NCBI GenBank assembly: GCA_017557625.1 | Contig: JAFYYG010000049.1 | Coordinates: forward strand, 1-36,673 | DNA length: 36,673 nucleotides | Origin: Muribaculaceae bacterium | GTDB lineage: Bacteria; Bacteroidota; Bacteroidia; Bacteroidales; Muribaculaceae | Direction of reading: 5' to 3' | Part shown: piece by piece, positions 10,279 through 31,402 of the stretch | Numbering within the stretch: position 1 is the first letter of the stretch | Layout: every line of letters starts with the position of its first letter | Notes under the pieces: model-generated | Database searches by the model: none | Seen by the model: only the letters and a program-made list of their open reading frames with translations | Told to the model about the DNA's origin: nothing | Translations under genes and position numbers: made by a program

Positions 10279-11064
10279 ATGAAACGATATATAGCATCAA
10301 TATTAATCACAGTAATAGCTTCAATGAGTGCTTGGGCTATTATGCCTAACGATGGCGGATGCCAAAACCTGCAGAACTTCTTCCGCAACGTGGAAGGGTA
10401 TGGCAGACTGGGTTACTCCATTGGCGGCACGGCTCCTATGGGCATGCCCGCCGAGATAAGGAAACTCAATAAGTTTATCCTGCAACCCAATGTGGCATTT
10501 GGTGCCGACCTCATTAAACCCGCCAGTGCCCACTGGGGAGTTCTTGCCGGCATTCATTTCGAAAATAAGGCGATGCACATCGATGCTACCGTCAAGAACT
10601 ACCACATGAGATTAACCCAAGACGGACAATCACTTGAGGGTGTGTTCACTGGCAAGAACGACAGCCATGCAGTGCAGTGGACTTTCACTGTTCCCATTCA
10701 AGCCGTTTATAAGTTCAACGACAAGTGGAAAATTAAGTTTGGACCTTATTTCTCCTATATCACCAGCTGCAACTTCGACGGCTTTGCCTACGATGGCTAC
10801 TTACGCGTTGACGATCCTACTGGAGCCAAAGTGCTACTTGGCACCACCGATGAGGAGCGCGGCAACTATGACTTCAAAGACGACATCCGCAAAGTGCAAT
10901 GGGGCATGGGAGTGGGCGTTGACTACTTTTTCACTCGCAAATTTGGTGTTTATGCCGACCTCAACTGGGGCCTTAGCGGCTTCTTCAAGAGCAGCTTCAA
11001 AACCCTTGACCAGACCCTCTACCCCATCTACGCAACAATTGGCATCGCTTATAGATTTAAGTAA
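10279..11064 (+). CDS. Outer membrane beta-barrel protein (PorT/OmpA-barrel-like)
   Basis: A 261-residue protein with a signal peptide (cleavage likely after SMSAWA) and about eight alternating amphipathic strands such as WGVLAGIHFENKAMHID, WKIKFGPYFSYITS and FGVYADLNWGLSG, ending in IGIAYRFK with the terminal aromatic typical of barrel proteins. It probably sits in the outer membrane between the PCMD lipoprotein gene (33 bases upstream) and the calycin-like genes. Cargo, if any, is unknown. Confidence 0.8.
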   Translation: MKRYIASILITVIASMSAWAIMPNDGGCQNLQNFFRNVEGYGRLGYSIGGTAPMGMPAEIRKLNKFILQPNVAFGADLIKPASAHWGVLAGIHFENKAMHIDATVKNYHMRLTQDGQSLEGVFTGKNDSHAVQWTFTVPIQAVYKFNDKWKIKFGPYFSYITSCNFDGFAYDGYLRVDDPTGAKVLLGTTDEERGNYDFKDDIRKVQWGMGVGVDYFFTRKFGVYADLNWGLSGFFKSSFKTLDQTLYPIYATIGIAYRFK

Positions 11065-11082
11065 TGCAAAATTCACAATGCA
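11062..11082 (+). repeat. Heptad words starting at the stop codon
   Basis: The stop codon TAA of the barrel gene starts a short 7-bp pattern: TAATGCA, AAATTCA, CAATGCA. The words match those after the gene ending at 30058. Confidence 0.55.
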
Positions 11083-11132
11083 ACAATTATAGAAAACATA
11101 ACTTATCAAATAACAATTTAAACGTTTAAATC

Positions 11133-11678
11133 ATGAAGAAAATTTTCACTTTTATCGCAGCTGCAGCTCTTGCTATGACTGCATTTGCTACCGACTATGC
11201 CGGTAAAATCACCGTGTCTGTCAATGGCGAGGGTGGAACTCAAGAGACCACCATCAACATTGACCAAAATGAAGATGGCACCTACTGTCTGAGCATCAAC
11301 AATTTTACTCTCGACAATGACGGCAGCCCAATGGGCGTGGGCAACATTGTGCTTGACAACATGAAGGGCTACACCATCAATGGCGTGACTACCATTGTTG
11401 CTGACCAAAGCATCACCGTCACCGAGGGCGACGACCCCAACATACCTTTCTGGTTAGGCCCTATGCTAGGTGAGGTTCCCATCATCATGGCAGCACAATT
11501 CGACGGCACTGACGCTAAGGCCGACATCGACATTGACATGAGAGAAATCATGGATCAGTTCATCAACGTGAAGTTTGCCACCCCAGGCATCGAAGGTGTC
11601 TATGGCGACGTGAATGGCGACGGCGAAGTGACTGCTGCTGATGTGACAAGTGTTTACAATGTCATTTTAGGACAATAA
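11133..11678 (+). CDS. Secreted calycin-like protein with C-terminal dockerin repeat
   Basis: A 181-residue protein with a signal peptide (cleavage near FATDYAG). Residues ~20-150 form a calycin-like barrel (DYAGKITVSVNGEG, YCLSINNFTL, VGNIVLDNM, WLGPMLGEVPI). The C-terminus GDVNGDGEVTAADVTSVYNV is a single calcium-binding dockerin-type loop-helix. The barrel domain is a clear paralogue of the N-terminal domain of the next gene product (GPMLG.VPI and INVKFA are shared), so the two arose by duplication. The ligand is unknown; calycin folds usually bind small hydrophobic molecules. Confidence 0.8.
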   Translation: MKKIFTFIAAAALAMTAFATDYAGKITVSVNGEGGTQETTINIDQNEDGTYCLSINNFTLDNDGSPMGVGNIVLDNMKGYTINGVTTIVADQSITVTEGDDPNIPFWLGPMLGEVPIIMAAQFDGTDAKADIDIDMREIMDQFINVKFATPGIEGVYGDVNGDGEVTAADVTSVYNVILGQ

Positions 11679-11682
11679 AAAC

Positions 11683-11738
11683 TAAGTGTTAAATGCTAAG
11701 TGTCAAGCACATTCTTGCTTGACACTTAACTCTTAAAA
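11683..11738 (+). terminator. Heptad tract folding into a 13-bp hairpin
   Basis: Positions 11697-11709 are exactly complementary to 11716-11728 (loop CATTCT). The left side is made of 7-bp words (TAAGTGT, TAAATGC, TAAGTGT, CAAGCAC) and the right side of CTTGACA, CTTAACT, CTTAAAA. It can act as a terminator or mRNA 3' end between the two calycin genes, though there is no long T-run. Confidence 0.65.
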
Positions 11739-11774
11739 ATATTGATTTCAATAGGTATTATTACAAACAAAAAC

Positions 11775-13877
11775 ATGAAAAAACTATTCTCTACAATGCT
11801 CGCTGCAGTGACTGCACTGGCAGCATTGGCAACCGACTATACCGGCACACTCACCGTGACGGTAAATGGCGAAAGCACAAACTCTGAATCTACTATCAGC
11901 GTTGTTCAAAACGGAAATGACTACACCTTGAGCATCAACAACTTTGAGCTTGAAGGACTGCCCATCGGCAACATTGTGGTAACAGCTCCTGGCTCTACCA
12001 GCAACGGCTTGACAAGCATCGTCACCAGCCAAGACATCACCATCACCGCTGGCGACGAGGGTGACGAATGGATTGGGCCCATGCTCGGTGTTGTTCCCAT
12101 CAACATGGTGCTGGCTTTCAACGACTATGCCATGACCTCCAACATCGACATCTATATGGCAGAGCTTGAACAGACCATCAACGTGAAATTTGCGCAAGAC
12201 GGAGAGCTCACTGGCTACCAAATCAAGAACAGCGGCTTCGAGTATTTTAAGGACAACGGCGAACCCTATGCTTGGCATGGTTTCAAAAGTGCATCAGGCA
12301 CTTTGGCAAGTAGTGCAAAAGGAACTTTGGCTTCAAGCCCAGATGTGCGCAGTGGAGCAACAGGCACCAGCGCTGTCATCACGTCGGGAAGCACTTGGGG
12401 CATTGTGAACAACGGAACCATGACTACTGGTCAATTAAATGCTGGCAACATTAGCGCAACTAATACTGCCAACCACAGCCACATGGACATGAGTTCTACA
12501 GCTACTGACCAACATGGTGACCCATTCTATACCGTGATGCACGGTCGTCCCGATGCCATCAAGTTCTGGCTGAAATTCACACAAGGTACTGCACAAAACA
12601 CATACAAATATGCCACTATGAGCGCCATCATCACCGATGGCACCTACTATCAAGACCCTGAGGACAAGAATTACACAAACAAACTAGCTTCTGCCAAGAA
12701 CAACACAATTGAAACATGCAGCTGGAGTGAGTTCACTGTGCCTTTCAACTATATAGATGAAAACATCAATGGCCAGGCACTTCTTGTGACCTTCTCGACC
12801 AACGCCACCCCAGGCAAAGGCAGCAGTGGCGACCAGGTTTTTGTTGACGACATCGCGTTGGTTTACAATGCCGCCATCACTGGCATCACTATCAAGGGTC
12901 AAGCTCTGGCTGGCTTCTCGCAAGATGTGTATGAGTACAACTTCGACATCACCGAAGGTGAGACTTTCGCCGACAGCGACATAGCCGCCACCTACGTGAG
13001 CAGTCATGCCTACCTCGTAAAGAAAGTGGTTGAGACCAGCGACGGCTACAAGCTCTTCGTGGCTGTAATCAGCAATGACCTCAACACTTTAAAGGTTTAC
13101 ACCATCAATTACATCAACCCAGGCACCCCACTCGCCACAATCTTGAGCGAAGGCATCGACGAGAAGGAATATATTGTTGCCGATGAACTGGCTATTGCCG
13201 AAGATTTTGAAATCATTGATGGTGACTCGAAGATTGTGGGCGCCACCGATGGCAACGGCAACTATATCACGCTGATTGTACCCACCGACTTCAACGCGAC
13301 ATCAATCGCCGCCAAGGGGCTCAAAGGTTACTACACTATAGAGAACGGCAATCCAGCCATCTCTGCTACCAGCGACATCAATACTGGCAATGATGGCGTC
13401 TCCTATGAGATTGAAACCGTTAATCTGAGTAGGATTGACCAAAACGGCTTCAACGTTGCCCCATCTCAGATTATCTACCTGCAAGGCTATGGCGACGCTG
13501 ACGGCAAGCTGCGCAGCTACCGCAATGCCCCACAAGGCACCAGCATCGTGCTTAATAACTTGAGCAACATCACTATCCAGCCTGGCTATCTCTACAAGAT
13601 GTATGGTATGATGACCCTCAACGAGGCTTGGGAGACTGCAGCACAAGGCGTTATGCCAAAGGTTGCACCAACCGACCCACGCTGGTTTGACAACTACACA
13701 TTTGTGGCGACAAGTGGCGAGGAGACCGTTGTCACTGCCATCGATGACATCAACACTGGCAACAGACAGATTGAAGGCATCTACAACGCCCAAGGACAGC
13801 GCGTGAGCGACACCGCCACCGGCATACTCATCATCCGCTATACCGACGGCACCGCCACAAAAGTCATCAGGCGCTGA
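11775..13877 (+). CDS. Large secreted calycin-like plus PCMD protein
   Basis: About 700 residues. The ATG at 11775 gives a clean signal peptide (MKKLFSTMLAAVTALAALA); the earlier ATG at 11742 would add an unlikely leader. Residues ~20-140 are a calycin-like barrel paralogous to the previous gene product. Residues ~145-375 resemble a PCMD domain (NSGFEYFKDNGEPYAWHGF, then IKFWLKFTQ and QVFVDDIALVYN). Beta-rich segments follow. The C-terminus IEGIYNAQGQRVS..GILIIRY is the short YNxQGQRV sorting-like tail common in Prevotella and Muribaculaceae secreted proteins. It combines the domain types of the other genes of the locus in one chain. Confidence 0.8.
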   Translation: MKKLFSTMLAAVTALAALATDYTGTLTVTVNGESTNSESTISVVQNGNDYTLSINNFELEGLPIGNIVVTAPGSTSNGLTSIVTSQDITITAGDEGDEWIGPMLGVVPINMVLAFNDYAMTSNIDIYMAELEQTINVKFAQDGELTGYQIKNSGFEYFKDNGEPYAWHGFKSASGTLASSAKGTLASSPDVRSGATGTSAVITSGSTWGIVNNGTMTTGQLNAGNISATNTANHSHMDMSSTATDQHGDPFYTVMHGRPDAIKFWLKFTQGTAQNTYKYATMSAIITDGTYYQDPEDKNYTNKLASAKNNTIETCSWSEFTVPFNYIDENINGQALLVTFSTNATPGKGSSGDQVFVDDIALVYNAAITGITIKGQALAGFSQDVYEYNFDITEGETFADSDIAATYVSSHAYLVKKVVETSDGYKLFVAVISNDLNTLKVYTINYINPGTPLATILSEGIDEKEYIVADELAIAEDFEIIDGDSKIVGATDGNGNYITLIVPTDFNATSIAAKGLKGYYTIENGNPAISATSDINTGNDGVSYEIETVNLSRIDQNGFNVAPSQIIYLQGYGDADGKLRSYRNAPQGTSIVLNNLSNITIQPGYLYKMYGMMTLNEAWETAAQGVMPKVAPTDPRWFDNYTFVATSGEETVVTAIDDINTGNRQIEGIYNAQGQRVSDTATGILIIRYTDGTATKVIRR

Positions 13878-13884
13878 TTTATTT

Positions 13885-13916
13885 AGCACACTAATTAAAC
13901 GAATTTAAACTAATTT
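13885..13916. repeat. Left arm of a 32-bp perfect inverted repeat
   Basis: Exact reverse complement of 15371-15402. It lies just after the stop of the calycin-PCMD gene and directly before the shared terminator. Confidence 0.95.
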
Positions 13917-13947
13917 AAAAGAGTCACTTCTCAGGTGACTCTTTTTT
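13917..13947. terminator. Bidirectional rho-independent terminator
   Basis: GAGTCAC (13921-13927) pairs with GTGACTC (13935-13941), with an A-run on the left and six T on the right. It serves the plus-strand gene ending at 13877 and the minus-strand gene ending at 13951. Confidence 0.9.
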
Positions 13948-13950
13948 GCA

Positions 13951-14328
13951 TTAATCTATGTATGGAACTCGGTGAGGTCTAATTGATTGTTCTTTGAAAT
14001 TATAAATCAACCCAAGTTGTAACCCAGTAGCTTTAAGGTAATTGATTACTTGAGCACGATGTTCTGGAAGAACCTCTTTTACTGATTTCAGTTCAACAAT
14101 TATCTTGTCGTAGCAAACGAAGTCGGCCTTATAAAACTTTTTAAGTTCTTCACCTTTATAAAATATGTGTAGTATCTTTTCACGCTCATAAGGAATACCG
14201 CGTTTTTTGAATTCTATTTCAAGAGCTTCTTGGTATACTTCTTCTAAAAAACCTGTGCCAAGATTGCTATGCACTTCCATAACAGCCCCTGTTATCTCAA
14301 AGCATTCTTGTTTGTAAATGAGTTCCAT
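13951..14328 (-). CDS. GxxExxY protein
   Basis: A 125-residue protein with the family signature (GTGFLEEVYQEALEIEF) near residues 22-38 and the downstream core KADFVCYDKIIVELKSV. The ADxx...ExK arrangement resembles PD-(D/E)xK nuclease folds, but the family has no established function that I know of. It is the last gene of a minus-strand group and lies 42 bases after the dehydrogenase; a degenerate copy of the inverted-repeat sequence sits just ahead of its start. Confidence 0.9.
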   Translation of the reverse strand: MELIYKQECFEITGAVMEVHSNLGTGFLEEVYQEALEIEFKKRGIPYEREKILHIFYKGEELKKFYKADFVCYDKIIVELKSVKEVLPEHRAQVINYLKATGLQLGLIYNFKEQSIRPHRVPYID

Positions 14329-14332
14329 AACA

Positions 14333-14368
14333 AAAATTAGTTTTAATTCGTGTGCTAAAACTAATAAG
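14333..14368 (-). repeat. Degenerate third copy of the 32-bp repeat
   Basis: The plus-strand run AAAATTAGTTTTAATTCG then TGTGCTAAAAC resembles the right arm at 15371-15402 with an internal deletion. Both copies are followed by GGATTAGTG, which contains the stop of the gene upstream on the minus strand. Confidence 0.65.
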
Positions 14369-14370
14369 GA

Positions 14371-15342: not shown

Positions 15343-15370
15343 GATTGCTTTTATGATAATGGATTCTAAA

Positions 15371-15402
15371 AAATTAGTTTAAATTCGTTTAATTAGTGTG
15401 CT
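15371..15402. repeat. Right arm of a 32-bp perfect inverted repeat
   Basis: Exact reverse complement of 13885-13916, lying between the glycosyltransferase stop and the dehydrogenase start on the minus strand. Confidence 0.95.
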
Positions 15403-15415
15403 TTAAAAAAGAGGA

Positions 15416-16410: not shown

Positions 16411-17523
16411 ATGAGTAACGAAAGAAAGATACGCATAGGCATCACTCAAGGCGACACCAACGGTGTGGGCTATGAGGTTATAATGAAATGCTTTACCAGC
16501 AACGACATCCTTGAGCTGTGCACACCCATCGTCTATGGCTCCAGCAAAATCATGAACTACCACCGCAAGGCGTTGGGGATACAGACTACCCAACTAAACA
16601 TTACACGTAATGCAGGGTACGTGAAAGAGAATCAGCTGAACTTAGTGGAGGTCATCAACGAGGAAGTGAAAATCGAACTCGGACAGCCGGGTAAGCAAGC
16701 CGGCAACGCCGCATTCATGGCTCTTGAGGCTGCCGTGAGCGACCTCAAGAAGGGTGTCATCGACGTGCTTGTCACTGCCCCCATCAACAAAGACAACATC
16801 CACAGCGAAGAGTTCTCTTTCCCTGGCCACACAGAGTATCTTGAGACCAGCCTGGGAGACGGTGCAAAAGCTCTTATGGTATTGTGCAACGACAAAATCA
16901 GAGTTGCGCTCGTCACCACACACATACCTATAGCGAAAGTGGCACAGAGCATCAACAAGGAAGATATTGTGGAAAAACTGCGCATCTTCAACGACTCCCT
17001 GCAACGCGACTTCAACATTCAGAAGCCACGCATAGCAGTACTTGGCCTCAACCCGCATTGCGGTGACAACGGGGTGATAGGAACCGAAGAGAAAGAAATC
17101 ATTGAACCAGCTATCCAAGAGGCCAATGACAACCAAATCCTGTGCTTCGGGCCCTACCCTGCCGACGGATTCTTCGGCAGCAACCAGTATCTTCGTTTTG
17201 ACGGTGTGCTTGCCATGTACCACGACCAGGGGCTCGCGCCCTTCAAGACCATCGCCATGAACGATGGAGTGAACGTGACCGCAGGACTGCCCTACGTGCG
17301 CACCAGCCCCGACCACGGCACTGGCTACGACATTGTCGGTCAAGGCATCGCCAGTGATCTGTCGATGCGTCACGCCATCTACACAGCCATCGACATCTAC
17401 CGCAACCGCAAGAACTGGGATGAGATGTATCAAAACCCTCTCAAAAAGCAGTACTTCGACAAAGGTAAGGACAACGTAGTCCTCGACCTTACCAAGATAG
17501 AAGACGAAGAACCGCTCGGGTAA
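16411..17523 (+). CDS. pdxA: 4-hydroxythreonine-4-phosphate dehydrogenase
   Basis: A 370-residue enzyme of vitamin B6 synthesis that oxidises 4-phosphohydroxy-threonine. The start IRIGITQGDTNGVGYEV matches the GDxxGIGxE family motif in its Bacteroidetes form. Metal-ligand regions are visible as FPGHTEYL, the conserved GLNPHCGDNG, and MYHDQGLAPFKT near residues 269-280, and the end PDHGTGYDIVGQG is typical. It is the first plus-strand gene of the region and leads straight into the inositol cluster, perhaps on one transcript, but has no obvious metabolic link to it. Confidence 0.95.
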   Translation: MSNERKIRIGITQGDTNGVGYEVIMKCFTSNDILELCTPIVYGSSKIMNYHRKALGIQTTQLNITRNAGYVKENQLNLVEVINEEVKIELGQPGKQAGNAAFMALEAAVSDLKKGVIDVLVTAPINKDNIHSEEFSFPGHTEYLETSLGDGAKALMVLCNDKIRVALVTTHIPIAKVAQSINKEDIVEKLRIFNDSLQRDFNIQKPRIAVLGLNPHCGDNGVIGTEEKEIIEPAIQEANDNQILCFGPYPADGFFGSNQYLRFDGVLAMYHDQGLAPFKTIAMNDGVNVTAGLPYVRTSPDHGTGYDIVGQGIASDLSMRHAIYTAIDIYRNRKNWDEMYQNPLKKQYFDKGKDNVVLDLTKIEDEEPLG

Positions 17524-17555
17524 GTTGTAAGTAATAAGTGTCAAGTAATAAGTTT
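17521..17555 (+). repeat. Heptad-word spacer, pdxA to NTP transferase
   Basis: Five consecutive 7-bp words begin exactly at the pdxA stop codon: TAAGTTG, TAAGTAA, TAAGTGT, CAAGTAA, TAAGTTT. Confidence 0.9.
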
Positions 17556-17571: not shown

Positions 17572-18270
17572 ATGCATTACGCGATAATAGCTGCTGGTGA
17601 GGGCTCAAGGCTGGCGCAAGAGGGCATCGAGAAGCCCAAGCCGCTTGTTGAACTCAACGGCGAGCCCATGATAATGAGGCTCATGAACATATTCATGCGA
17701 TGCAATGCCGAGAGCATCTCGGTAATCATCAACGACTTCATGCCCGAGGTGCGGCATTTTCTCGACAATGTGGAGATTGAAGCCCCTCTCAACGTCATCG
17801 TGAAATCCACGCCAAGCTCCATGCACAGCTTCTGGGAGCTGAGCAAGGTGATGAAACCCGGCAAGTTCTGCCTCACCACTGTCGATACCATTTTCCGTGA
17901 GGAGGACTTCGCCAAGTACATCGCCGCTTTTGAGGCCGACACACGCCACGACGGACTATGGGCGGTGACACCGTTCATCGAGGACGAGAAGCCGCTCTAT
18001 GTGGATGTGAACCGCTGCATGAACATAAAGGCCTTCTGCGACGAGCCGTTTGAGGGTGCCAAGTACGTCTCAGGGGGCGTATATGCCATGACCGACAAGG
18101 CGTTCCCCATCCTCAACGAGTGCATCGAGAACGGCATCTCACGCATGCGCAACTTCCAGCGGGCGCTCATTGGTGCCGGCATGAAGCTAAAAGCCTATAG
18201 CATCGACAAAATCATAGACGTGGACCACGCTAGCGACATTGAAGTGGCACAAGCGTTTATCAACTCATAA
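17572..18270 (+). CDS. Sugar/inositol-phosphate nucleotidyltransferase
   Basis: A 232-residue NTP transferase with the signature AAGEGSRL near residue 6, then the KPKPLVEL lysine motif (~22-28), and a mid-chain metal region around TTVDTIF. Such enzymes join a sugar phosphate or related phosphate to a nucleotide. Its setting with inositol-phosphate synthase and a CDP-alcohol transferase suggests inositol-1-phosphate as substrate and CTP as donor, as in the archaeal IPCT enzymes; this is inference. Its C-terminal codons form part of the heptad tract that follows. Confidence 0.85.
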   Translation: MHYAIIAAGEGSRLAQEGIEKPKPLVELNGEPMIMRLMNIFMRCNAESISVIINDFMPEVRHFLDNVEIEAPLNVIVKSTPSSMHSFWELSKVMKPGKFCLTTVDTIFREEDFAKYIAAFEADTRHDGLWAVTPFIEDEKPLYVDVNRCMNIKAFCDEPFEGAKYVSGGVYAMTDKAFPILNECIENGISRMRNFQRALIGAGMKLKAYSIDKIIDVDHASDIEVAQAFINS

Positions 18271-18294
18271 CTCACAACTCATAACTGAATAACT
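18261..18294 (+). repeat. Heptad-word spacer, NTP transferase to ATP-grasp
   Basis: 7-bp words CAACTCA, TAACTCA, CAACTCA, TAACTGA run from the last codons, through the stop codon (18268-18270), to the next ATG. The repeat therefore also determines the final residues INS. Confidence 0.9.
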
Positions 18295-19182
18295 ATGGCC
18301 GATATCAACATTGCAGGAGTAATGAGGGCGGGAGCCTACTCTCCTAACCACATTGGCAACGACACCGCCATCTTCAACGCCGTCGCCGAACAGCTGCGCA
18401 AGCGGGGATGCATCGTCAACACCTACAGCGAGGAGCAGTTCAACAACGGTGACATCAAGGAGGACATCATCGTGAATATGTGCCGTGAGCACAGCTCTAT
18501 TCTCAAACTGCAAAAGCTTGAGAATAACGGGAAACTGGTTATAAACTCGGGCTTCGGCATTGAGAACTGCACCCGTGAGCGCATGACACGCATCCTGCTG
18601 GGCAACGGAATACCCTACCCCGACAGCATCATCGTCAACACCGACGAGGTGGTGAAAGACCGGCTGAAAAAGAGCGGCTTCCAAAGCTGCTGGATTAAGC
18701 GCGGCGACTTTCATGCCATGCACAAGGAGGATGTGAGCTACGTGCGCCACAGCGAGGAGGCACAAGAGGTGCTGCAAGAGTACTTCCTGCGCGGCATCAA
18801 GCGCGCCGTCATCAACGTGCATCTCGTGGGCGACCTTATCAAGTTCTACGGTGTGAGAGGCACCAACTACTTCTTCTGGTTCTACCCCTTCGACGAAGGC
18901 CACAGCAAGTATGGTCACGAGGCCATCAACGGCAGGTCGCAAGGCTTGAAATTTGACGTCAAGTATCTCAAAAGCATCTGCAACCACGCCGCCGACGAGC
19001 TGAACATAGAGATTTATGGCGGCGACTGCATCGTGGGTGCCGAGGGCGACGTGAAAATCATCGACTTCAACGACTGGCCCAGCTTCGCGCCATGCCGCAA
19101 CGATGCCGCCCCCCACATCGCCAAGCGTATTATTAACATCATCAAAGAGCGAGGAACGAAAATCGAGGATCGAAGGTCGTGA
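18295..19182 (+). CDS. ATP-grasp-like protein of the inositol cluster
   Basis: A 295-residue protein. The C-terminal part IYGGDCIVGAEGDVKIIDFN then DWPSFAPCR has the pattern of ATP-grasp ligases or kinases (Asp and Asn metal ligands late in the fold), and CWIKRGDFHAM around residue 132 looks like the lysine strand that binds ATP. ATP-grasp enzymes form amide or similar bonds through acyl-phosphates, or act as kinases; some phosphorylate inositol phosphates. The acceptor here is unknown. It lies inside the inositol cluster, 24 bases after the nucleotidyltransferase, so its product probably shares that pathway. Confidence 0.7.
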   Translation: MADINIAGVMRAGAYSPNHIGNDTAIFNAVAEQLRKRGCIVNTYSEEQFNNGDIKEDIIVNMCREHSSILKLQKLENNGKLVINSGFGIENCTRERMTRILLGNGIPYPDSIIVNTDEVVKDRLKKSGFQSCWIKRGDFHAMHKEDVSYVRHSEEAQEVLQEYFLRGIKRAVINVHLVGDLIKFYGVRGTNYFFWFYPFDEGHSKYGHEAINGRSQGLKFDVKYLKSICNHAADELNIEIYGGDCIVGAEGDVKIIDFNDWPSFAPCRNDAAPHIAKRIINIIKERGTKIEDRRS

Positions 19183-19231: not shown

Positions 19232-20194
19232 ATGAACTTCAAAGAATTAAAACAACAATATAACGAGTCGCTCAAATCGATGGACACTGAGGAGCACATC
19301 GACTTGTGGTTCTACAGGCCATTAGGCTTTGCATGGGCGGTGCTTTTCGCCAAACTCGGCATCAAGCCAAATGCCGTTACCATCGCGTCGATATTCTTAG
19401 GCGTGGCAGGTGGTATTTTGCTCTATTTTGGCGCGTCGCCGCTAATCTGGCTCAACTACTTGGGCATCTTCCTCATCATCTGGGCAAACACCTACGACAG
19501 TGCCGATGGACAGTTAGCGCGTCTCACCAAGCAGTATTCCCAGATAGGACGCATCCTCGACGGAGTGAGCGGCGACTTCTGGGCGTTTGCCATCTATTTC
19601 GCGCTTGTCTTCCGCGAGCTGCACTTTGGCGACGCTGCACTTGGCGACTTCTTTAGTCATCATAATTGGATAATATGGGCATTAGCGATTACAGCTGGTG
19701 TGAGTCATGCTCTGCAATGCGCTATGGCCGACTACTACCGTCAGTTCCACCTATATTTCCTCAAGGGCGAAGGAGGCAGCGAACTCGACAGCACTGATAA
19801 GCTTGACGAGCAAATCAAGCAATCCTCGGGCTTCAAGCGCATCACCATGTTCTTCTATCGCAACTACACTGCCAACCAGGAGCGTCTCACTCCCGCCATG
19901 CAGCGTCTGCGCCGTGAGCTGAAGAACCGGTTTGGCGATGCGATGGCACCACAGCAGTTCCGTGACGACTTCCGAGCGCTCAGCCTGCCACTGATGAAGT
20001 ACACCAACATCCTCACCTTCAACACTCGCACCATCGCCATGTTCATCTCGGTGATTATCAGGATACCCTGGCTGTATTTCGTCTTCGAGCTCGTAGTGCT
20101 CAATTCGTTGCTCATCTACATGATCATGCGCCACGAGAACATATGCAAGAAACTCACCAATGACCTAAAGGCAGGGAAATACGACGGTAAGTGA
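19232..20194 (+). CDS. CDP-alcohol phosphatidyltransferase (inositol-phosphate transferase candidate)
   Basis: Membrane enzyme of 320 residues that replaces CMP on a CDP-alcohol with an acceptor alcohol. The start at 19232 excludes an upstream frame that reads through the repeat spacer. The family motif is at residues 89-115: Asp89, Asp92-Gly93, Ala96-Arg97, Gly106, Asp110, Asp115. Asp110 and Asp115 are separated by four residues (DGVSGD) where the usual motif has three. About five hydrophobic segments surround it, with a charged loop at ~190-260. In gut Bacteroidetes the homologue beside inositol-phosphate synthase is thought to make phosphatidylinositol phosphate; a di-inositol-phosphate type product is an alternative. 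Confidence 0.88.
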   Translation: MNFKELKQQYNESLKSMDTEEHIDLWFYRPLGFAWAVLFAKLGIKPNAVTIASIFLGVAGGILLYFGASPLIWLNYLGIFLIIWANTYDSADGQLARLTKQYSQIGRILDGVSGDFWAFAIYFALVFRELHFGDAALGDFFSHHNWIIWALAITAGVSHALQCAMADYYRQFHLYFLKGEGGSELDSTDKLDEQIKQSSGFKRITMFFYRNYTANQERLTPAMQRLRRELKNRFGDAMAPQQFRDDFRALSLPLMKYTNILTFNTRTIAMFISVIIRIPWLYFVFELVVLNSLLIYMIMRHENICKKLTNDLKAGKYDGK

Positions 20195-20262
20195 TAAGTG
20201 TTAACTGTTTCTAGTTATTCTAGAAAATCTAGACGATCTAGAACTTCTAGAACTCCAGAAAA
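20188..20262 (+). repeat. Heptad then nonad tandem words, phosphatidyltransferase to HAD
   Basis: Three 7-bp words (TAAGTGA holding the stop codon, TAAGTGT, TAACTGT) are followed by 9-bp words with CTAG at 20211, 20220, 20229, 20238 and 20247, a strict 9-bp period. Confidence 0.9.
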
Positions 20263-24947: not shown

Positions 24948-24965
24948 TTTAGCAGATATTCCTCG

Positions 24966-25007
24966 TTCCACTTTCCACCTTCCACTTTCCACCTTCCACT
25001 TTCCACC
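24966..25007 (+). repeat. Heptad-word spacer before the GT2 gene
   Basis: Three perfect copies of a 14-bp unit, each made of the heptads TTCCACT and TTCCACC, ending three bases before the ATG. Confidence 0.97.
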
Positions 25008-25010
25008 TAC

Positions 25011-25760
25011 ATGAAGCGTCTTTCAATCATAATCATCACTTACAACGGGTTAGGATTCTTGACCCGTTGTTTAGCATCATTGCATGATTTCATCAGCGAC
25101 CCTTCGTGCGAGGTGATTATCATCGACAACGGCTCCACCGACGGCACGCTCGACTTCCTTCATGAGAATTACCCTCAACTGCAACTAATCTCGAACAGCG
25201 ACAACCGAGGTGTGGCACCGGCACGAAATCAAGGCATCGCTGTGGCCAAAGGTGAGAAACTGCTGCTGCTCGACAACGACACTGAGGCAACTACCGACGC
25301 CATCAATGCCATGAGCGATTATCTCGACAACAACCCACAGGTGGGATTGTGCTCATGCCGGCTCGTTGACAAAGAAGGTATTCCGCAAGACAGCTGCAAG
25401 CCCTACCCTGGTCTGATGATAAAGCTGCGTAATGTGTTGGGAATAGGCAACAAAACGAAATATGAGCCTAACGAAGAAGGAGTAATCGAACCATTATATG
25501 TAATTGGGGCATGCCAGATGTTCCCGCATGCCATCGTCGATAAAGTGGGAATGCTCGACAACCGCATCTTCTACGGTCCCGAAGACGCCGACTGGTGCAT
25601 TCGCATAAAGAAAGCCGGATACCACATCCACTGCCTCAACAACCACACCATAGTCCACGACTACCGCCGCTCCACTAAAAAACGCCCCTTCTCAAAACTC
25701 GGCCGCCTTCACATCAAGGCATTGATCTATTTCTACTGGAAACACAAACGGCTGTTCTAA
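25011..25760 (+). CDS. GT2 glycosyltransferase (rhamnosyltransferase-like)
   Basis: A 249-residue family 2 glycosyltransferase: IIIITYNGLGFLTRCL at the start, EVIIIDNGSTDGTLDFL near residue 35, LLLLDNDTEATTDA with the metal-binding DxD near residue 85, and FYGPEDADWCIRIKKAGYHI near residue 185, which is typical of rhamnosyltransferase-type enzymes. The acceptor is unknown. It probably works with the upstream radical SAM enzyme. Confidence 0.88.
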   Translation: MKRLSIIIITYNGLGFLTRCLASLHDFISDPSCEVIIIDNGSTDGTLDFLHENYPQLQLISNSDNRGVAPARNQGIAVAKGEKLLLLDNDTEATTDAINAMSDYLDNNPQVGLCSCRLVDKEGIPQDSCKPYPGLMIKLRNVLGIGNKTKYEPNEEGVIEPLYVIGACQMFPHAIVDKVGMLDNRIFYGPEDADWCIRIKKAGYHIHCLNNHTIVHDYRRSTKKRPFSKLGRLHIKALIYFYWKHKRLF

Positions 25761-26260: not shown

Positions 26261-29200
26261 ATGAAAAAAATCTTATTCTTACTTCTGGCACTCGTGGCGG
26301 GGCAGAGTGCGTGGGCCACGACCAAGACCGTGACCTATACGATAACCAGCGTGGAAAGGAACAGTAGTTTAAACTACGAAGTCGTCTTCACCCGCAGCGG
26401 CGATACACCCTTTGACGACACCGCGCCAACAACGTGTACCATAACCATCCCTGAAAGCGCCCTCAGCACCTCAGGCGGTGCCGGCGGCTTTAGCCTCCAG
26501 ATGGCCGACGGCTTCGTCCTCCGTGGCTCGTGGGCTGCAGGCTCAAATGTTGTGTTCGTGGGCCATAACTTCTATGCCCAATCTACCTCGGGCATCAGCT
26601 ACATTCTCAAGTGCAACAACAGCAACTATTACGTCATGCATGTCACGATGGGAAGGGATGACGGCACCGACAAGATACTCGACACCGATTATAACAGCGA
26701 ATGGAACTTTTTTCACCAATACCCCCCTTCGGCCTACGCCCGCTTCGGCCAAATCTCCATCACCTACAGCGACGCACCTGCTCTTAATATCTTCGAGCCC
26801 GACGGCGAGAACGCCTACAAGATTAAGAGCAAGCAAGACCTGCTGCACTTGGCCAACTATGTGAACGTAGGCCATAACGACTGCAGCGGCCTTACCTTCC
26901 GACAGACGAAGGACATCACTTGCGACGACACCTACGTCCCCATCGGCTACTATGCCAGCAGCAGTGACTATGCCGATTTCAGCGGCACCTACGACGGCCA
27001 GGGCTATACCCTAAGCGGCATCAATGTCGGCACCGCTTATGGTGGTAACGATATGTTCATAGGACTCTTTAGTAGAATCAAGAGTGCTACCATTCAGAAT
27101 GTCGTCCTGTCCAACAGCACTTTTACGGGTAGCGTCGGAGTCGCCGGCATCGCGGCTTACAATTCTGGTGGCACTGTCATCAACTGCCGCGTGGAAAACA
27201 CCGTTACCATCCAGGCCGGCATAAACAGCGCCTCTAGAATGGGCAGCTTCGTGGGCTACAACGTTGGTATGTATTCCAAGGTTATAGGCTGTGTCAGTGC
27301 CGCCACCGTCAGCTGCAATGGAAAGCGCAATTGTGAAGATTTTGGCGGCATTGTGGGCGATATGAGCAGCAGTGTCATCAAGAACTGCCTCTTTACTGGC
27401 ACTATTGTCGATGGCAGCTATTCCAATTTTAAGGGCGGCATCGCAGGCCATGGTAATATTGTCAACAACTTCAGCGAACTCAGCAACAATTACTACACGT
27501 CGGGCAACTTCGGCGGCCTGAACGGCAGCGACGTGGATGGTGCCCGCCTCGCCCGCACCGTCACCCTCGGCGAGGGCGTAATCCTCAGCGGCGACGAGAC
27601 CGACTACGACATCAGCGGACTCACCGCCATCGGCGACGACTACTTCGCACTGCGCCAAGGCTCCACTATCTACAGCGGCGAGGGACAGACACTCACCCTG
27701 AGCTACAGCGGCGAGCTGCCTGCGGGATATGCACCCGTCTATTCGGTGAACGGCAACGCCATCGAGGGCAACACCTTCGAGATGCCAGCGGCAGATGTCA
27801 CCGTCACAGCGACAACCACCGCCATTGACTACACCATCACCCTGCCCACCGACCTTGAGCACGCCACCATTACTAGCGACAAGGCCACGGCGCACGTGGG
27901 CGATACCGTCACGCTCACCGTCACGCCCAATGAAGAATATGTCATCGAGTCGGTAACCGTGATGAATGGTGACAACGAGGTGGAAATCACCGAGGGCGAG
28001 AACAACACCTACACCTTCGAGATGCCGGCAGCCGATGTCACCGTGAGTGTGGAGATACAGCGCCTGCGCTACACCTTCAACAGCACCACTGGCGAGCTGA
28101 AGCTCATCTACGGCGAGTTCAACAAAGACAACAAGTGGGGCAGCGAGGTTCAGCCTGACAGTGTCAAGAGCGTCACCGCCACCAGTGAGGTGAGCTTCAC
28201 TGGCGACTGCTCAGAGCTGTTCTATAATTTCAAAAATTGCGAGAGCATGGATCTGAACAGCGTCAACACCAGCGAGATGACGAATTGTTACAGAATGTTC
28301 TACAACTGTTGGAACCTTACCTCTCTCGACCTCTCGAACTGGAATACCGCCAATGTCACCAGCATGAACCAAATGTTCAATGGTTGCAGTGGTCTCACCT
28401 CGCTCGACCTCTCGAACTTCAACACCGGCAATGTCACCGATATGTGCAGTATGTTCAGCTCATGCTCAAGCCTCACCTCGCTCGATCTCTCGGGCTTCAA
28501 CACTGGCAATGTCACCAATATGAGTAGTATGTTCTGGATATGCTCTGCCCTTACCTCGCTCAACCTCTCGAACTTCGACACTGGTAATGTCACCTATATG
28601 AGCGCTATGTTCGAAGGCTGCTCGGCATTGACTTCTATCGACCTCTCTGGCTGGAACACCGACAACGTTACCGCCATGAACTATATGTTCTACGATTGCC
28701 AGGCCTTGACCACTCTTGACCTATCATGCTTCGACACCGGCAAGGTTGAGTATATGGAGGGAATGTTCTATTATTGTAAAAACTTAACCACCATCTACGC
28801 AGGCTCAGGCTGGAGCACCGAGAGTGTGGAAGAGTCAGATTGGATGTTCAAAGATTGTACTAAACTGGTGGGCGGCATGGGAACTACCTACGACGCTAAT
28901 CACATCGATGCCGAGTATGCCCGCCTCGATGGCCCCAACTGCCCCGGCTACTTCACATCATCGCTACCACGCTACACCTTCGACAGCGAGACCGGCGTGC
29001 TTGCGCTCAACTGGGGCGAGTTCAACAAGGACAACAAATGGAGCTACGAGTTGTCCACCGCTTCTGTGACAAGCGTGACCGCCACCAGCTATGTGAGCTT
29101 CACTGGCGACTGCTCACGTCTGTTCTCAGGTTTCGATCATTGTGTGAACATGGACCTGAACAGCGTCAACACCAGCGAGATGACGAATTGTAATAGTATG

Positions 29201-30058
29201 TTCTATTGGTGCGAGAATCTTGACACACTCGACCTCTCGGGCTGGGACACCGGTAATGTCACCAGCATGAACCAAATGTTCAGTGGGTGTAATGGTCTTA
29301 CTTCGCTCGATGTCTCTGGTTGGAACACTGCCAATGTCACCGATATGTGTCGAATGTTCTTTGACTGCAATAACCTCACCTCGCTCGATCTTTCAGGCTG
29401 GGACGTCGGTAATGTCACCGACATGAGAAGCATGTTCTCCTACTGCAACTCCTTGACCACTGTCGACCTCTCGGGCTGGAACACTGCCAATGTCACCAGC
29501 ATGGAATATATGTTCTACTATTGCACGTCCTTGACCACTCTTGACCTCTCGAGTTTCGACACTGGCAATGTCACCGACATGAGCAAGATGTTGGATAACT
29601 GCCATGCCTTGACCACTATTGACCTATCAAGCTTCGACACCAGCAATGTCATCTACATGTACAATATGTTCTATAATAGTATGAACTTAACCACCATCTA
29701 CGCAGGCACTGGCTGGAGCACCGAGAGTGTGCAAGGCTCAGATTGGATGTTCGCATATTGCGCCTCATTAGTGGGCGGCATGGGAACTACCTACGATGAG
29801 CACCACAGCGATGCCGAGTATGCCCGCATCGACGGCGGCCCCAACTGCCCAGGCTACTTCACCGACAAGAATCCTGTGGTGGTGGTTACTGGCGACGTTG
29901 ACGGCGACGGATATGTGACAACGGTTGATATCACCGCGATTTACAACTACCTACTCAACGGCGATGAGACCTTCCTCTCCACCAGCGACGTGGACGGCGA
30001 CGGCTTTATCACCACTACCGATATCACAGTGATCTACAATATCCTTTTAGGAAATTAA
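26261..30058 (+). CDS. Giant secreted BspA-like DUF285 repeat protein with dockerin end
   Basis: 1265 residues. Signal peptide 1-19; a beta-rich N-terminal domain; Glug-type beta-helix repeats at ~240-400 (GGIVGDMSSSVIKNCLFTGT); a listeria/bacterial-repeat-like domain at ~520-600 (HVGDTVTLTVTPNEEYVIES). Then two DUF285 arrays of 24-residue units (MFxxCxxLTSLDLSxxNTxNVTxM) at ~603-903 and ~904-1205. Each array starts with the same RYTF..GEFNKDNKW lead-in and ends with the same GGMGTTYD..PNCPGYF cap, so the whole ~900-bp module was duplicated. The C-terminus is a two-loop dockerin (DVDGDGYVTTVDITAIYN and DVDGDGFITTTDITVIYN). BspA-type proteins mediate adhesion in other Bacteroidetes; the target here is unknown. 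Confidence 0.9.
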   Translation: MKKILFLLLALVAGQSAWATTKTVTYTITSVERNSSLNYEVVFTRSGDTPFDDTAPTTCTITIPESALSTSGGAGGFSLQMADGFVLRGSWAAGSNVVFVGHNFYAQSTSGISYILKCNNSNYYVMHVTMGRDDGTDKILDTDYNSEWNFFHQYPPSAYARFGQISITYSDAPALNIFEPDGENAYKIKSKQDLLHLANYVNVGHNDCSGLTFRQTKDITCDDTYVPIGYYASSSDYADFSGTYDGQGYTLSGINVGTAYGGNDMFIGLFSRIKSATIQNVVLSNSTFTGSVGVAGIAAYNSGGTVINCRVENTVTIQAGINSASRMGSFVGYNVGMYSKVIGCVSAATVSCNGKRNCEDFGGIVGDMSSSVIKNCLFTGTIVDGSYSNFKGGIAGHGNIVNNFSELSNNYYTSGNFGGLNGSDVDGARLARTVTLGEGVILSGDETDYDISGLTAIGDDYFALRQGSTIYSGEGQTLTLSYSGELPAGYAPVYSVNGNAIEGNTFEMPAADVTVTATTTAIDYTITLPTDLEHATITSDKATAHVGDTVTLTVTPNEEYVIESVTVMNGDNEVEITEGENNTYTFEMPAADVTVSVEIQRLRYTFNSTTGELKLIYGEFNKDNKWGSEVQPDSVKSVTATSEVSFTGDCSELFYNFKNCESMDLNSVNTSEMTNCYRMFYNCWNLTSLDLSNWNTANVTSMNQMFNGCSGLTSLDLSNFNTGNVTDMCSMFSSCSSLTSLDLSGFNTGNVTNMSSMFWICSALTSLNLSNFDTGNVTYMSAMFEGCSALTSIDLSGWNTDNVTAMNYMFYDCQALTTLDLSCFDTGKVEYMEGMFYYCKNLTTIYAGSGWSTESVEESDWMFKDCTKLVGGMGTTYDANHIDAEYARLDGPNCPGYFTSSLPRYTFDSETGVLALNWGEFNKDNKWSYELSTASVTSVTATSYVSFTGDCSRLFSGFDHCVNMDLNSVNTSEMTNCNSMFYWCENLDTLDLSGWDTGNVTSMNQMFSGCNGLTSLDVSGWNTANVTDMCRMFFDCNNLTSLDLSGWDVGNVTDMRSMFSYCNSLTTVDLSGWNTANVTSMEYMFYYCTSLTTLDLSSFDTGNVTDMSKMLDNCHALTTIDLSSFDTSNVIYMYNMFYNSMNLTTIYAGTGWSTESVQGSDWMFAYCASLVGGMGTTYDEHHSDAEYARIDGGPNCPGYFTDKNPVVVVTGDVDGDGYVTTVDITAIYNYLLNGDETFLSTSDVDGDGFITTTDITVIYNILLGN

Positions 30059-30086
30059 TGCATAATGCACAATGCACAATGCATAA
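30056..30086 (+). repeat. Heptad words starting at the stop of the giant gene
   Basis: From the stop codon: TAATGCA, TAATGCA, CAATGCA, CAATGCA, then TAA. It contains TGCATAA/TGCACAA copies that make the tract nearly palindromic. Confidence 0.9.
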
Positions 30087-30610
30087 TTGGCTGTGCTTTC
30101 GTTAATGCCGTCCTAAAAGAGGTTCCCTGTACTACGGCTCCGCCGTAGTCTGGCGCAGGGGCTTGACACAAAAATGCTTGGGGCTTTTGATGGCTCCAAG
30201 CATTTTCCTTTGTGGAGCCGCGCAATACCGATTGCCGAGGTGAGCGTAGCGAACTGTAGGTAATCGGCATTGGGGGTATAACGGCACCCATGGGAATAGT
30301 CGCTGAAGGCGACCCCATTGGCTGCGCTCTAAACAAGGTGAGGGTATTGAAAAACTCCCACTCACAATATAAACAACTGAATTATCTGAATGTTCTGATT
30401 TTATACACAATTGATTTTTCAAGGTTTTATATTTTTTCTTGATTTCAGATTTTTCAGAAAAATCAGTTGTTTTTTATTTTTGACACACCATCACTCACGT
30501 TAAACCAGGGCGTTGTTGATGTATTGCGCCGTATGCACGGCGTTCAAGAAATTCACTGGCAACAACAAAAAAATGACCAATAAACCATAATAGTTCATCA
30601 GTCATTTTCT
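30087..30610. repeat. Non-coding region rich in palindromes
   Basis: No credible gene; open frames here lack domains or initiation signals. Hairpins include ACTACGG..CCGTAGT (~30131-30149), a 14-bp stem with one mismatch around ATGCTTGGGGC (~30171-30206), CCGATT..AATCGG (~30228-30268) and GTCGC..GCGAC (~30299-30313). The region resembles a dispersed intergenic repeat, but no second copy is in this window. Confidence 0.45.
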
Positions 30611-30686
30611 TGGTGATCCGCCTGGGGTTCGAACCCAGGACCCCATCCTTAAAAGGGATGTGCTCTACCTACTGAGCTAGCGAATC
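30611..30686 (-). tRNA. tRNA-Lys (anticodon UUU)
   Basis: The minus strand folds as a full cloverleaf: acceptor GATTCGC with GCGGATC (one T-G pair), TA then D-stem GCTC..GAGC, anticodon stem CATCC/GGATG with loop CTTTTAA (anticodon TTT), T-arm CTGGG-TTCGAAC-CCCAG, discriminator A and an encoded CCA. It lies upstream of no tRNA cluster and there is no integrase nearby. Confidence 0.95.
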
Positions 30687-30836
30687 CCCGTAAAAGCGAT
30701 GCAAAGGTACTGCTTTTTTTTGAACTGGCAAATATTTTTTCACAAAATTGCCAATATTTTCAGAATTATTGCCCTAAAATCACCATAACAAGCGCATCAA
30801 CGGCTGTTTTTTGCGTTTTTTAGAGCTTATTTCCTA

Positions 30837-31298
30837 TTAGAATGGTATAACATCACCCTCGGCGGTGGTGTTATTCTGCACCTCCGTTTGTGCCGGCTGA
30901 ACCGGTTTTTGTTCGGCATTCTCGTTAGTGGCAGGTGCGTCTCCTCCAGACTTTGGTCCACTCTGCCCTCCACCGAGCATCTCAAATGAATCGACATAAA
31001 TCTCGGTGATGTATCGCTTCATCTTGTTCTTGTCTTCCCAGTTGCGTGTGCGTAGCCGGCCCTCAACAAACAACCTTGTGCCCTTTTTTATGTATTTCTC
31101 GGCAACTTCGGCATTGCGGCCCCACATCACGATATTGTGCCACTCGGTTCGCTCAGGAACCTGTGTTCCCGAAGATGTGGTATATCCCCTATCGCTAGTT
31201 GCTAAGGGGAAAGAAGCAACTATTTGACCTTGCGAAGGATATCTAACATCGGGGTCGCGCCCCACATTTCCTAAAAGAATAACTTTGTTTACTGACAT
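30837..31298 (-). CDS. ssb: Single-stranded DNA-binding protein
   Basis: A 153-residue SSB. The OB-fold occupies ~1-108 (MSVNKVILLGNVGRDPDVRY, WHNIVMWGRNAEVAEKYIKKG, LFVEGRLRTRNWED), followed by a Gln/Pro/Asn-rich linker and the interaction tip EGDVIPF, the Bacteroidetes form of DDDIPF. It is downstream of the ArgC-like gene across a spacer made of two heptad tracts. Confidence 0.95.
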   Translation of the reverse strand: MSVNKVILLGNVGRDPDVRYPSQGQIVASFPLATSDRGYTTSSGTQVPERTEWHNIVMWGRNAEVAEKYIKKGTRLFVEGRLRTRNWEDKNKMKRYITEIYVDSFEMLGGGQSGPKSGGDAPATNENAEQKPVQPAQTEVQNNTTAEGDVIPF

Positions 31299-31402
31299 GC
31301 TTTATAGTTTTTAGTTCACAGTTTATAATTCACAGTTGTTGGTTTATCGGGAAAGGCTTTCACTTTTCTCCACTCTCCACTCTTCACTCTCCACTCTCCA
31401 CT
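31299..31402 (-). repeat. Two heptad tracts between the ArgC-like gene and ssb
   Basis: Plus-strand coordinates: CTCCACT occurs five times in register at 31368-31402 (third copy CTTCACT), one base from the ArgC-like stop codon. At 31301-31342 a second heptad series runs up to the ssb start: TTTATAG, TTTTTAG, TTCACAG, TTTATAA, TTCACAG, TTGTTGG. Confidence 0.93.

Follow-up and report, generated by a model that had tools for sequence, protein, structure and literature searches.

The intergenic spacers of a rumen Muribaculaceae-like draft genome (Bacteroidales) carry tandem arrays of 7-bp words that share a vocabulary between spacers and keep a fixed orientation at gene boundaries. We give about even odds (roughly 50%) to the view that these are dispersed, slippage-grown intergenic heptad arrays, a variant of the known heptamer repeats of the STRR kind, which are mostly tolerated filler and have been spread by copying. 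The analysed portion of this genome (G000) comprises 780 kb (26%), and the window discussed below is a stretch of 36,673 nt (contig JAFYYG010000049.1 of assembly GCA_017557625.1, forward strand). Genes were called with a custom hexamer script, and their start positions are uncertain. Throughout, U denotes words at the left end of a spacer and V their reverse complements, found at the right end.

A 7-bp period in intergenic spacers

Heptad spacers are genuine. In the 780 kb sample, 133 lag-7 tracts were found in 108 kb of spacers compared to ca. 1.4 in shuffles, with only 10 in the 657 kb called as coding sequence. Identity at lag 7 across 265 spacers was 0.317 vs. 0.2795 after shuffling (z 19), with further peaks at 14, 21, and 28, and 51 lag-7 tracts scored 12 or more (0.1 in shuffled spacers), while lags 4–6 and 8–13 gave 0–6 each. 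The excess over shuffles that a first-pass annotation of the window had suggested looking for is present in this sample, and tracts are rare inside genes. Within the window alone, lag 7 reaches a z of 4.6, yet lags 8–11 are also elevated (2.7–4.0), so the case for a period of 7 rests on the larger sample. Cyanobacterial STRRs are heptanucleotide, dispersed, and intergenic. The arrays described here are likewise made of tandem 7-bp units far above chance, lie mostly outside coding sequence, and use the same words at many scattered places. Judging from a reading of the words, stop codons in all frames are an unlikely reason for the period, as words of the TTCCACT and ATCGGGG types contain no stops.

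Arrays in the window

For each candidate stretch of the window, the best lag-7 tract was compared with those of 1000 dinucleotide-shuffled versions. Eight of the nine heptad starts listed by the first-pass annotation lie in stretches that pass this test (11683 by virtue of a neighbouring arm), while 11062 does not.

On the plus strand, a V array of TTCCACT and TTCCACC words at 24959..25006 lies on the start side of its spacer, leaving 4 bp to the ATG at 25011 (score 26, 0/1000 shuffles; also detected by TRF). The 20-letter pattern TTCCACTTTCCACYTTCCAC is matched at 15 places in the genome, including two within this array, and its reversed control at none, while the orthologous spacer of the related genome G001 contains no lag-7 tract. 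A U array of TAATGCA and CAATGCA words at 30056..30087 includes the stop codon of the gene at 26261–30058 in its first word (score 20, 0/1000 shuffles). Another U array (TAAGTTG, TAAGTAA, TAAGTGT) at 17520..17553 runs from the stop codon of pdxA (16411–17523), with p 0.002 for 17520–17539 and a TRF call of period 7 at 17528–17553; at the orthologous spacer, G011 has TAATGCA words followed by AAACGAT words. The V array at 18262..18286 (AACTCAT/AACTCAC; score 13, p 0.001) overlaps the stop of the gene at 17572–18270 and is separated from the ATG at 18295 by 8 bp. U words TAAGTGA and TAAGTGT at 20188..20209 (score 10, p 0.001) overlap the end of a gene stopping at 20194 and are followed at 20209..20254 by a 9-bp array of TCTAGANNN-like words (lag 9, score 17, 0/1000 shuffles), which bears out the previously noted switch from a 7-bp to a 9-bp period.

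Between the genes at 11133–11678 and 11775–13877, the stretch at 11683..11736 (plus strand) combines U words TAAGTGT with V words ACACTTA and contains a perfect 13-bp inverted repeat; its p of 0.014 belongs to the partner V arm at 11718–11736, the best tract of the stretch. In G010 and G011, the corresponding spacers hold what, by eye, is a hairpin-like sequence with altered letters. The tract at 11062..11083 (TAATGCA, AAATTCA, CAATGCA; plus strand), which starts in the stop codon of the gene at 10279–11064, is weak by itself (p 0.154), and its sole support is that the G011 ortholog starts with TGCATAATGCATAATTCATAATGCACAAT directly past the stop. On the minus strand, a U array of AGTGGAG words (read on the coding minus strand) at 31367..31402 lies one base past the stop of asd (31404–32309, minus; score 24, 0/1000 shuffles), where the orthologous spacer of G001 has AGTGGAGAGGTAAGAGTAGAGAGTGGAG. 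The V array at 31301..31337 (AACTGTG, AATTATA, AACTAAA on the minus strand) precedes the start of ssb (30837–31298, minus), with p 0.039 at lag 7 for 31301–31316 and a TRF call of period 14 at 31306–31337.

In most spacers, the first word had been said to begin at or within a base or two of the stop codon. Arrays start at the stop codon at 11062, 17521, and 30056, one base past the asd stop at 31368, and a few bases past a stop at 11683. Those at 18261 and 20188 overlap the end of the gene before them, and those at 24966 and 31301 belong to the start side.

Placement and fixed orientation

The arrays belong to gene boundaries rather than to stop codons as first thought, since 62 stop-side and 51 start-side tracts were found in codirectional spacers (both samples) and 61 of 122 tracts are no more than 7 bp away from a start or a stop (21.6 expected). 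This placement test used 122 of the 128 tracts, the other 6 nearly filling their spacer; it and the polarity tests excluded spacers of more than 700 bp, including a 4460-bp stretch of contig C75.

Orientation follows a simple rule on either strand, with U words at the left and V words at the right end of a spacer. Of the 68 hold-out tracts, 56 lay on the side that a lexicon trained on one sample predicted. Neighbouring arrays were ordered UV 26 times, VV 5 times, and never VU, tracts with a lexicon score within 2 of zero being excluded. All these polarity tests treat arrays as independent and are too strong if arrays copy each other. Genome G016 also shows the polarity clearly, and G034 shows it for tracts near a boundary; the G000 lexicon succeeded for 26/34 tracts in G016, 20/37 in G034, and 11/21 in small samples of other genomes. 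A stricter rule of G-rich stop sides was abandoned because 19 G-richer vs. 10 C-richer tracts of 30 in sample 1 became 15 vs. 15 of 32 in the hold-out, unlike the word-lexicon test, which was replicated there.

A selected RNA signal is a doubtful explanation for these arrays. On this view, V words before start codons would form unstructured, G-poor leaders or binding sites for a protein such as S1, and U words after stops would prevent Rho from loading onto the RNA, both serving re-initiation or operon insulation. Start-side tracts are indeed C-richer (21/25 in sample 1 and 23/26 in the hold-out; overall 44 C-richer vs. 4 G-richer), arrays are more common in codirectional than in convergent spacers (97/377 vs. 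7/61, pooled p 0.015), and a translational role has been proposed for similar repeats (MacGregor 2015, PMC4679880, in the excerpts available). However, divergent spacers (13/62) do not differ from codirectional ones (p 0.53). A restriction of arrays to operon spacers was rejected for the same likeness and because the contrast of sample 1 (codirectional 52/193 vs. convergent 2/35) was weaker in the hold-out (45/184 vs. 5/26). Moreover, hold-out tracts in convergent spacers follow the orientation rule in 6/6 cases (only 3/6 for divergent spacers, an exception that counts against the copying model below), and V arrays keep their orientation upstream of promoter-like TAnnTTTG boxes, outside the likely transcript (12 V and 2 T-rich tracts scored as U, though sample 1 rows also helped to train the lexicon; 4 V and 0 U among hold-out rows). 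A translation-reinitiation device, as had been suggested for the window, explains neither observation by itself. Non-array codirectional spacers of G000 lack polarity (GT 0.48 at both ends), which implies that leaders do not need it, although non-array spacers of G034 do show one. The TAnnTTTG boxes themselves are present in 13/78 array-bearing vs. 60/154 non-array codirectional spacers of 60–300 bp (p 0.0005).

Because polarity is seen in convergent spacers and in words without G runs, translation or quadruplex formation is unlikely to be its general cause, and a process acting on DNA at gene boundaries is suggested instead; a polymerase may be involved. In one such scheme, which we consider improbable, a polymerase or reverse transcriptase would repeat a short template at the 3' ends of DNA broken within a spacer, telomere-like, and ends joined head to head would give the order U...V. 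Such a scheme is compatible with arms that are independent of each other and with a rule valid in convergent and codirectional spacers alike. It also fits the strand bias of lag-7 tracts no more than 15 bp from a gene: read 5' to 3', their G/T-rich strand leads away from that gene in 31/36 and 34/42 cases in the two samples of G000, 19/23 in G016, 18/19 in G034, and 3/3 in G001. However, the rest of the genus follows in only 2/4 cases, the 8–11-bp arrays of G000 do not follow this keto rule (12/48; 11/32 and 1/16), though those of G016 do (25/35), AATGCAY words break its sign by their letters, and a vocabulary of many words would demand many templates.

Shared vocabulary and turnover at orthologous loci

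That the spacers are unrelated in sequence is not borne out, as they have a common vocabulary. Among 128 tracts, 251 pairs from different spacers share a 14-mer, compared to 14 in a column-permuted null (maximum of 23 in 20 runs), and 93 share an 18-mer (2.6 in the null). Three spacers between unrelated genes even have a non-periodic centre plus an AAACGAT arm in common, and the six proteins flanking them show no cross match better than E 0.5. The two word classes distinguished earlier (YAANTNN-like and CCACT-like) are largely one vocabulary on opposite strands.

A comparison of orthologous spacers for word turnover, which the first-pass annotation had proposed, revealed that an array tends to be kept at its locus between close species, often with other words. 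Among 39 loci, both G000 and G001 have an array at 10, only one of them at 4 and 3, and neither at 22 (Fisher p 0.0003); of the 10 loci with arrays in both, 3 have no 10-mer in common, 2 have two, and 5 have at least seven. At loci with an array in G000 alone, the G000 spacer exceeds its ortholog by a median of 83 bp for G011 (n 7), 59.5 bp for G046 (n 14), 56 bp for G010 (n 3), and 13 bp for G001 (n 4, p 0.21), vs. median differences of −8.5, −13, 0, and −0.5 bp, respectively, where neither genome has one (spacers of more than 400 bp excluded). Array-free orthologous spacers are shorter, down to 0–6 bp, which may reflect either gain in G000 or loss of long spacers in the relatives.

Local slippage as the sole process, with each array grown in place from bases beside the stop or start and 7 as the preferred step, is hard to reconcile with these data, and we think it unlikely. 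It would account for the decay of word identity along 61 arrays of at least 35 bp, a pattern that local duplication should produce (0.80 at lag 7, 0.71 at lag 35), and for the stop-side arms at C75:46844, which differ by one heptad between G000 and G001. Slippage was also proposed by Mrazek, as cited in excerpts of MacGregor 2015 and Rehm 2015. However, the shared vocabulary, the non-periodic block common to unrelated spacers, the fixed word orientation, and the change of word class at orthologous loci all speak against arrays that arose independently in place.

Hairpins and mobile elements

RNA hairpins between arms were rejected as a general rule because own arms pair no better than swapped ones (p 0.39 and 0.84); the same comparison gave p 0.11 for 6 pairs in G016 and p 0.49 for 7 pairs in G034. 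The mean folding z was −1.52 for 42 spacers with arrays and −1.16 for 73 without. In the arm comparison that gave p 0.39, spacers without arrays did self-pair better (permutation, 0/2000). Single hairpins exist, e.g., at 11683–11736, and mini-hairpins past some stop codons were seen by eye.

REP/BIME elements are characterised by an invariant palindromic core and by their association with a Y1 transposase of the RAYT type. A mobile palindromic REP/BIME or MITE element, in which the spacer unit would be a transposase-moved hairpin and the heptads its decayed arms, is an improbable source here: UV order is dyad-symmetric, the palindromic centres GACGAGNNNNNNCTCGTCC and CTGCGACTCNGTCGCAG recur (with 0 matches to reversed patterns), and the mini-hairpins agree with it, but only a minority of the listed spacer centres are palindromic (about 5, by eye), no constant termini or target duplication were noticed, and the arms of one spacer are unrelated in class (same class in 4/27 classified pairs, 4.6 when permuted). 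A transposase as driver was likewise rejected, as matches to PF01797 (Y1_Tnp) occur in 22/22 genomes (21 above the cut-off), including array-poor ones, with no relation to array density.

A proposed copying model and known heptamer systems

The reading that we favour is that of slippage-grown arrays spread by copying. Arrays would grow by slippage in 7-bp steps, and their words would diverge through point mutations. Copying from other arrays, by gene conversion or by template switching at common words, would spread them and swap them between spacers. We propose that polarity is kept because the copied unit retains its side and orientation. Arrays would mainly be filler that is tolerated in spacers without a promoter, in line with the scarcity of TAnnTTTG boxes there, and not a device that regulates particular genes, with insertions elsewhere probably purged by selection. 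A polarity like that of G000 in two genomes with other words, together with published arrays in other phyla, weighs against a purely historical account, which does not require it. It is a long shot that the heptad arrays of several phyla are one phenomenon under one polarity law, with a strand laid 5' to 3' from the gene and the same word sense at every boundary; a spacer would then resemble two repeat-capped ends joined head to head, with breaks capped by iterative, telomere-like 7-nt synthesis templated by existing arrays or RNA.

Our literature search for tandem intergenic heptamers together with Bacteroidales returned no match. Nevertheless, the first-pass statement that Bacteroidales have no known equivalent does not hold, as excerpts of MacGregor 2015 (PMC4679880) describe TAACTGA direct repeats in Beggiatoaceae, Cyanobacteria, and five Bacteroidetes including Paludibacter propionicigenes, a member of this order. 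There, 147 of 170 sets in the BOGUAY table point toward a start codon and 12 toward a stop, 24 sampled Microcystis sets have mixed orientations, two Cyanothece strains differ mostly by 7-nt indels, and relatives of two Bacteroidetes have shorter, repeat-free spacers. Like those repeats, the present arrays consist of heptamers between genes. Rotating TAACTGA gives AACTGAT, which is frequent among our V words (e.g., at C23:16023), and V words share the forward orientation just upstream of starts. However, the excerpts describe one dominant word with related heptamers rarely repeated, while our listings contain many word classes with TAACTGA as one among several; here, stop- and start-side arms are also about equally common, and one word class gives way to another between orthologous loci.

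Excerpts of Rehm 2015 (PMC4692102) report G-quadruplex-forming GGGNATC heptamers in Xanthomonas and Nostoc. Whichever way the ORF points, upstream repeats lie mostly within 50 bp of it on the non-coding strand, and downstream repeats sit on the coding strand no more than 50 bp past the stop, some overlapping it; those between divergent ORFs are under-represented, and 83% of loci keep the repeat between two Xanthomonas species with differing lengths. Our ATCGGGG class is the same type of word under a similar strand rule, with the G-rich strand pointing outward from the closest ORF (ATCGGGG on stop sides, CCCCGAT on start sides). Unlike in that system as excerpted, no difference between codirectional and divergent spacers is seen here, and G-run units are, by letters, limited to the ATCGGGG class rather than typical of most words. 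Words that lack G runs (AACTGAT, AGTTCAT, and AATTGTT in G034) obey the rule as well, so quadruplex formation cannot be its general cause. The heptanucleotide long simple sequence repeats of Mrazek 2007, as cited in the excerpts of both papers, are runs of one unit, while the arrays here drift and mix words in register. Heptamer arrays are thus known from several bacterial phyla, some with a similar direction rule and, in these excerpts, without an accepted cause (MacGregor 2015, PMC4679880; Rehm 2015, PMC4692102). In the clade described here, arrays are numerous and fall into several word classes, and some sister species have them while others do not, which makes their origin testable.

A 7-bp period in intergenic spacers

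The window is one complete contig (C37) of the draft genome G000 (3.05 Mb, 76 contigs). By our own gene calls it holds 5.6 kb of spacer, too little for statistics alone, and larger samples of G000 were therefore taken: sample 1, with 20 stretches and 413 kb including the window, and a hold-out sample of 20 further stretches (367 kb). Homologues of the window's asd with 75-86% identity come from MAGs, most of them of rumen or other ruminant forestomach origin, whose labels are Muribaculaceae, Prevotellaceae or Bacteroidales; the DNA of MAG RGIG8108 is contained in the related genome G001.

The 7-bp period that the first-pass annotation reported in spacers is real. Across the 265 spacers of sample 1, lag-7 identity is 0.317 vs 0.2795 after dinucleotide shuffling (z 19), with extra peaks at lags 14, 21 and 28, and coding sequence of the same sample has its 3-bp period and no lag-7 excess. 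Tracts scoring at least 12 number 51 at lag 7 vs 0.1 in shuffles, and 0-6 per lag at lags 4-6 and 8-13. Score-10 tracts number 63 in sample 1 and 70 in the hold-out (shuffles 0.73 and 0.67); inside coding sequence there are 3 and 7, five of these ten beginning in the last 22 codons of a called gene and the other five falling within two called genes. The window by itself gives z 4.6 at lag 7, but lags 8-11 are also raised (z 2.7-4.0), so that it is insufficient to favour 7 over neighbouring lags. The called genes at C23:22917-25418 and C75:59348-60415 (contig:position in G000) carry G-rich then C-rich heptad arrays mid-gene; they have the look of genes fused across what was once a spacer, or of errors in gene calling.

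Array anatomy and shared vocabulary

Half of the arrays (61/122) lie within 7 bp of a gene boundary, where random placement expects 21.6 (maximum 35 in 1000 simulations). Many spacers hold two, one past the stop codon and one ahead of the next start. Words drift along an array with the register kept, as at C16:73683 (TTCCCGA to TCCACTT to AACACTT). When the seven columns of each array were permuted, preserving period, composition and drift, 14 tract pairs in different spacers had a common 14-mer, vs 251 in the real data. Three spacers (C23:36563, C75:78083 and C23:62078) have a block in common that includes a non-periodic centre, and the proteins on either side show no relationship, the best cross hit being no better than E 0.5. 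The data thus go against the earlier view that no common sequence is copied among these spacers.

Other repeats occur alongside. Palindromic centres recur in G000, CTGCGACTCNGTCGCAG at 7 places and GACGAGNNNNNNCTCGTCC at 12 distinct places, several between a U and a V array (word types defined below) and some with ATCGGGG and ACACTTA arms; they resemble a small family of dispersed repeats. A separate 9-bp class with a palindromic core, TCTAGANNN, lies at 20209-20254 of the window and at about 8262-8310 of a relative's locus (L145), and is seen in several spacers of the genus, which also has 8-bp (AACAAGAN-like) and 10-bp (CTAGGAATNN-like) classes. By eye, short GC-rich hairpins of GCGCC-NNN-GGCGC type stand immediately 3' of stop codons, ahead of the U array (C16:33647, C17:21299, C17:31945, C23:77196, C75:54053). 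Between two genes at 11683-11736 of the window lies a perfect 13-bp inverted repeat, TAAGTGTCAAGCA...TGCTTGACACTTA; in the orthologous spacers of the related genomes G010 and G011 a hairpin-like sequence is kept with letters changed, by eye as if compensated. The window also encodes a 1265-aa ORF with 78-bp internal repeats (26261-30058), which looks BspA-like.

Polarity of the words

Words at left spacer ends (U) and their reverse complements at right ends (V) were separated with a lexicon of 5-mers, trained by position on 60 sample 1 tracts. It predicts 50/60 tracts on leave-one-out and the correct spacer half for 56/68 hold-out tracts (p 3e-8; since arrays may have been copied from one another, this and the other polarity p values overstate independence). 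Of the 12 misses, six are members of an off-centre UV pair. It is right for 6/6 hold-out tracts in convergent-gene spacers and for only 3/6 in divergent ones. Adjacent arrays within one spacer are ordered UV 26 times, VV 5, and never VU or UU; at a lower threshold the counts are UV 35, VV 9 and VU 2. Array spacers of G000 are polar in G+T content, which is 0.52 at the first end and 0.40 and 0.39 at the last (p 0.0003, 0.0001); non-array spacers have 0.48 at either end (p 0.99, 0.89) and are not polar. The sign does not hold for 8-11-bp arrays of G000.

In G016, of the same genus, a lexicon trained on that genome places 28/34 tracts correctly (p 0.0001), and the G000 lexicon 26/34. In the A+T-rich G034, from another family of the order, the figure is 24/37 (p 0.049), and among tracts no more than 15 bp from a gene G+T content places 18/19; polarity is seen there in non-array spacers too. 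Small samples of other genomes gave 11/21 with the G000 lexicon.

V arrays precede a promoter-like TAnnTTTG box in 12 cases, nine of them AACT-class heptads ending exactly 6 nt before it; that scan also scored two T-rich tracts as U. The combined AACT pattern has 28 sites in G000 (e.g., C23:61421, C29:7813, C46:31381) and none in a reversed control. This could mean that array and promoter are copied together as a module, or that the promoter includes the array. Arrays before such boxes likely sit outside the transcript, with orientation unchanged. The box is scarcer in array spacers (13/78) than in others (60/154).

Comparison between species

G000 and G001 were compared at 39 orthologous gene pairs: arrays occur in both genomes at 10, in only one at 7 and in neither at 22 (p 0.0003). 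Shared loci range from near-identical, with the first arm shorter by one heptad (C75:46844), to lacking any common 10-mer (3/10 loci); at C75:54053 both arms differ in word class. Spacers at the same gene pairs are often short in G010, G011 and G046: that at C23:62067 measures 89 bp in G000 and 91 bp in G001, vs 4, 6 and 6 bp, and that at C23:58727 measures 52 and 60 bp, with no gap in G046 and G010. By eye, arrays at asd-ssb are present in the window and in L033-L035, its closest relatives; they are missing from loci L037-L048, where the spacer is mostly shorter. Density is patchy, with at least one lag-7 tract in 7/21 other genomes of the genus (20-40 kb sampled each).

Candidate explanations

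We give roughly even odds to a DNA-level process that would extend arrays stepwise, 7 bp at a time, with copying from spacer to spacer that preserves side and sense, and with arrays tolerated chiefly where a promoter is not needed; that arrays are copied, and where the sign comes from, is what we infer. Local slippage as the sole process is contradicted by the shared vocabulary, the three-spacer block and the polarity. A translation device would leave unexplained the arrays in convergent spacers, those flanking promoters and the unpolarised ordinary leaders. Quadruplexes fail as the cause of polarity, since words lacking G runs are oriented in the same way, and hairpin pairing is not maintained per spacer.

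Relation to known heptamer repeats

In MacGregor 2015 (PMC4679880), TAACTGA arrays of one Beggiatoaceae genome are directed mostly toward start codons, and such arrays are also recorded in cyanobacteria and five Bacteroidetes. Rehm 2015 (PMC4692102) describes GGGNATC-type heptamers of Xanthomonas and Nostoc as intergenic repeats with the nearby ORF on the 5' side of the repeat, whichever way the ORF runs, and leaves their function open. Set against these papers, the G000 arrays form a many-word system in which word classes are exchanged, extending both, and raise the possibility that a single rule underlies the two reports. We therefore regard them as a variant of the known heptamer repeats, with new features.
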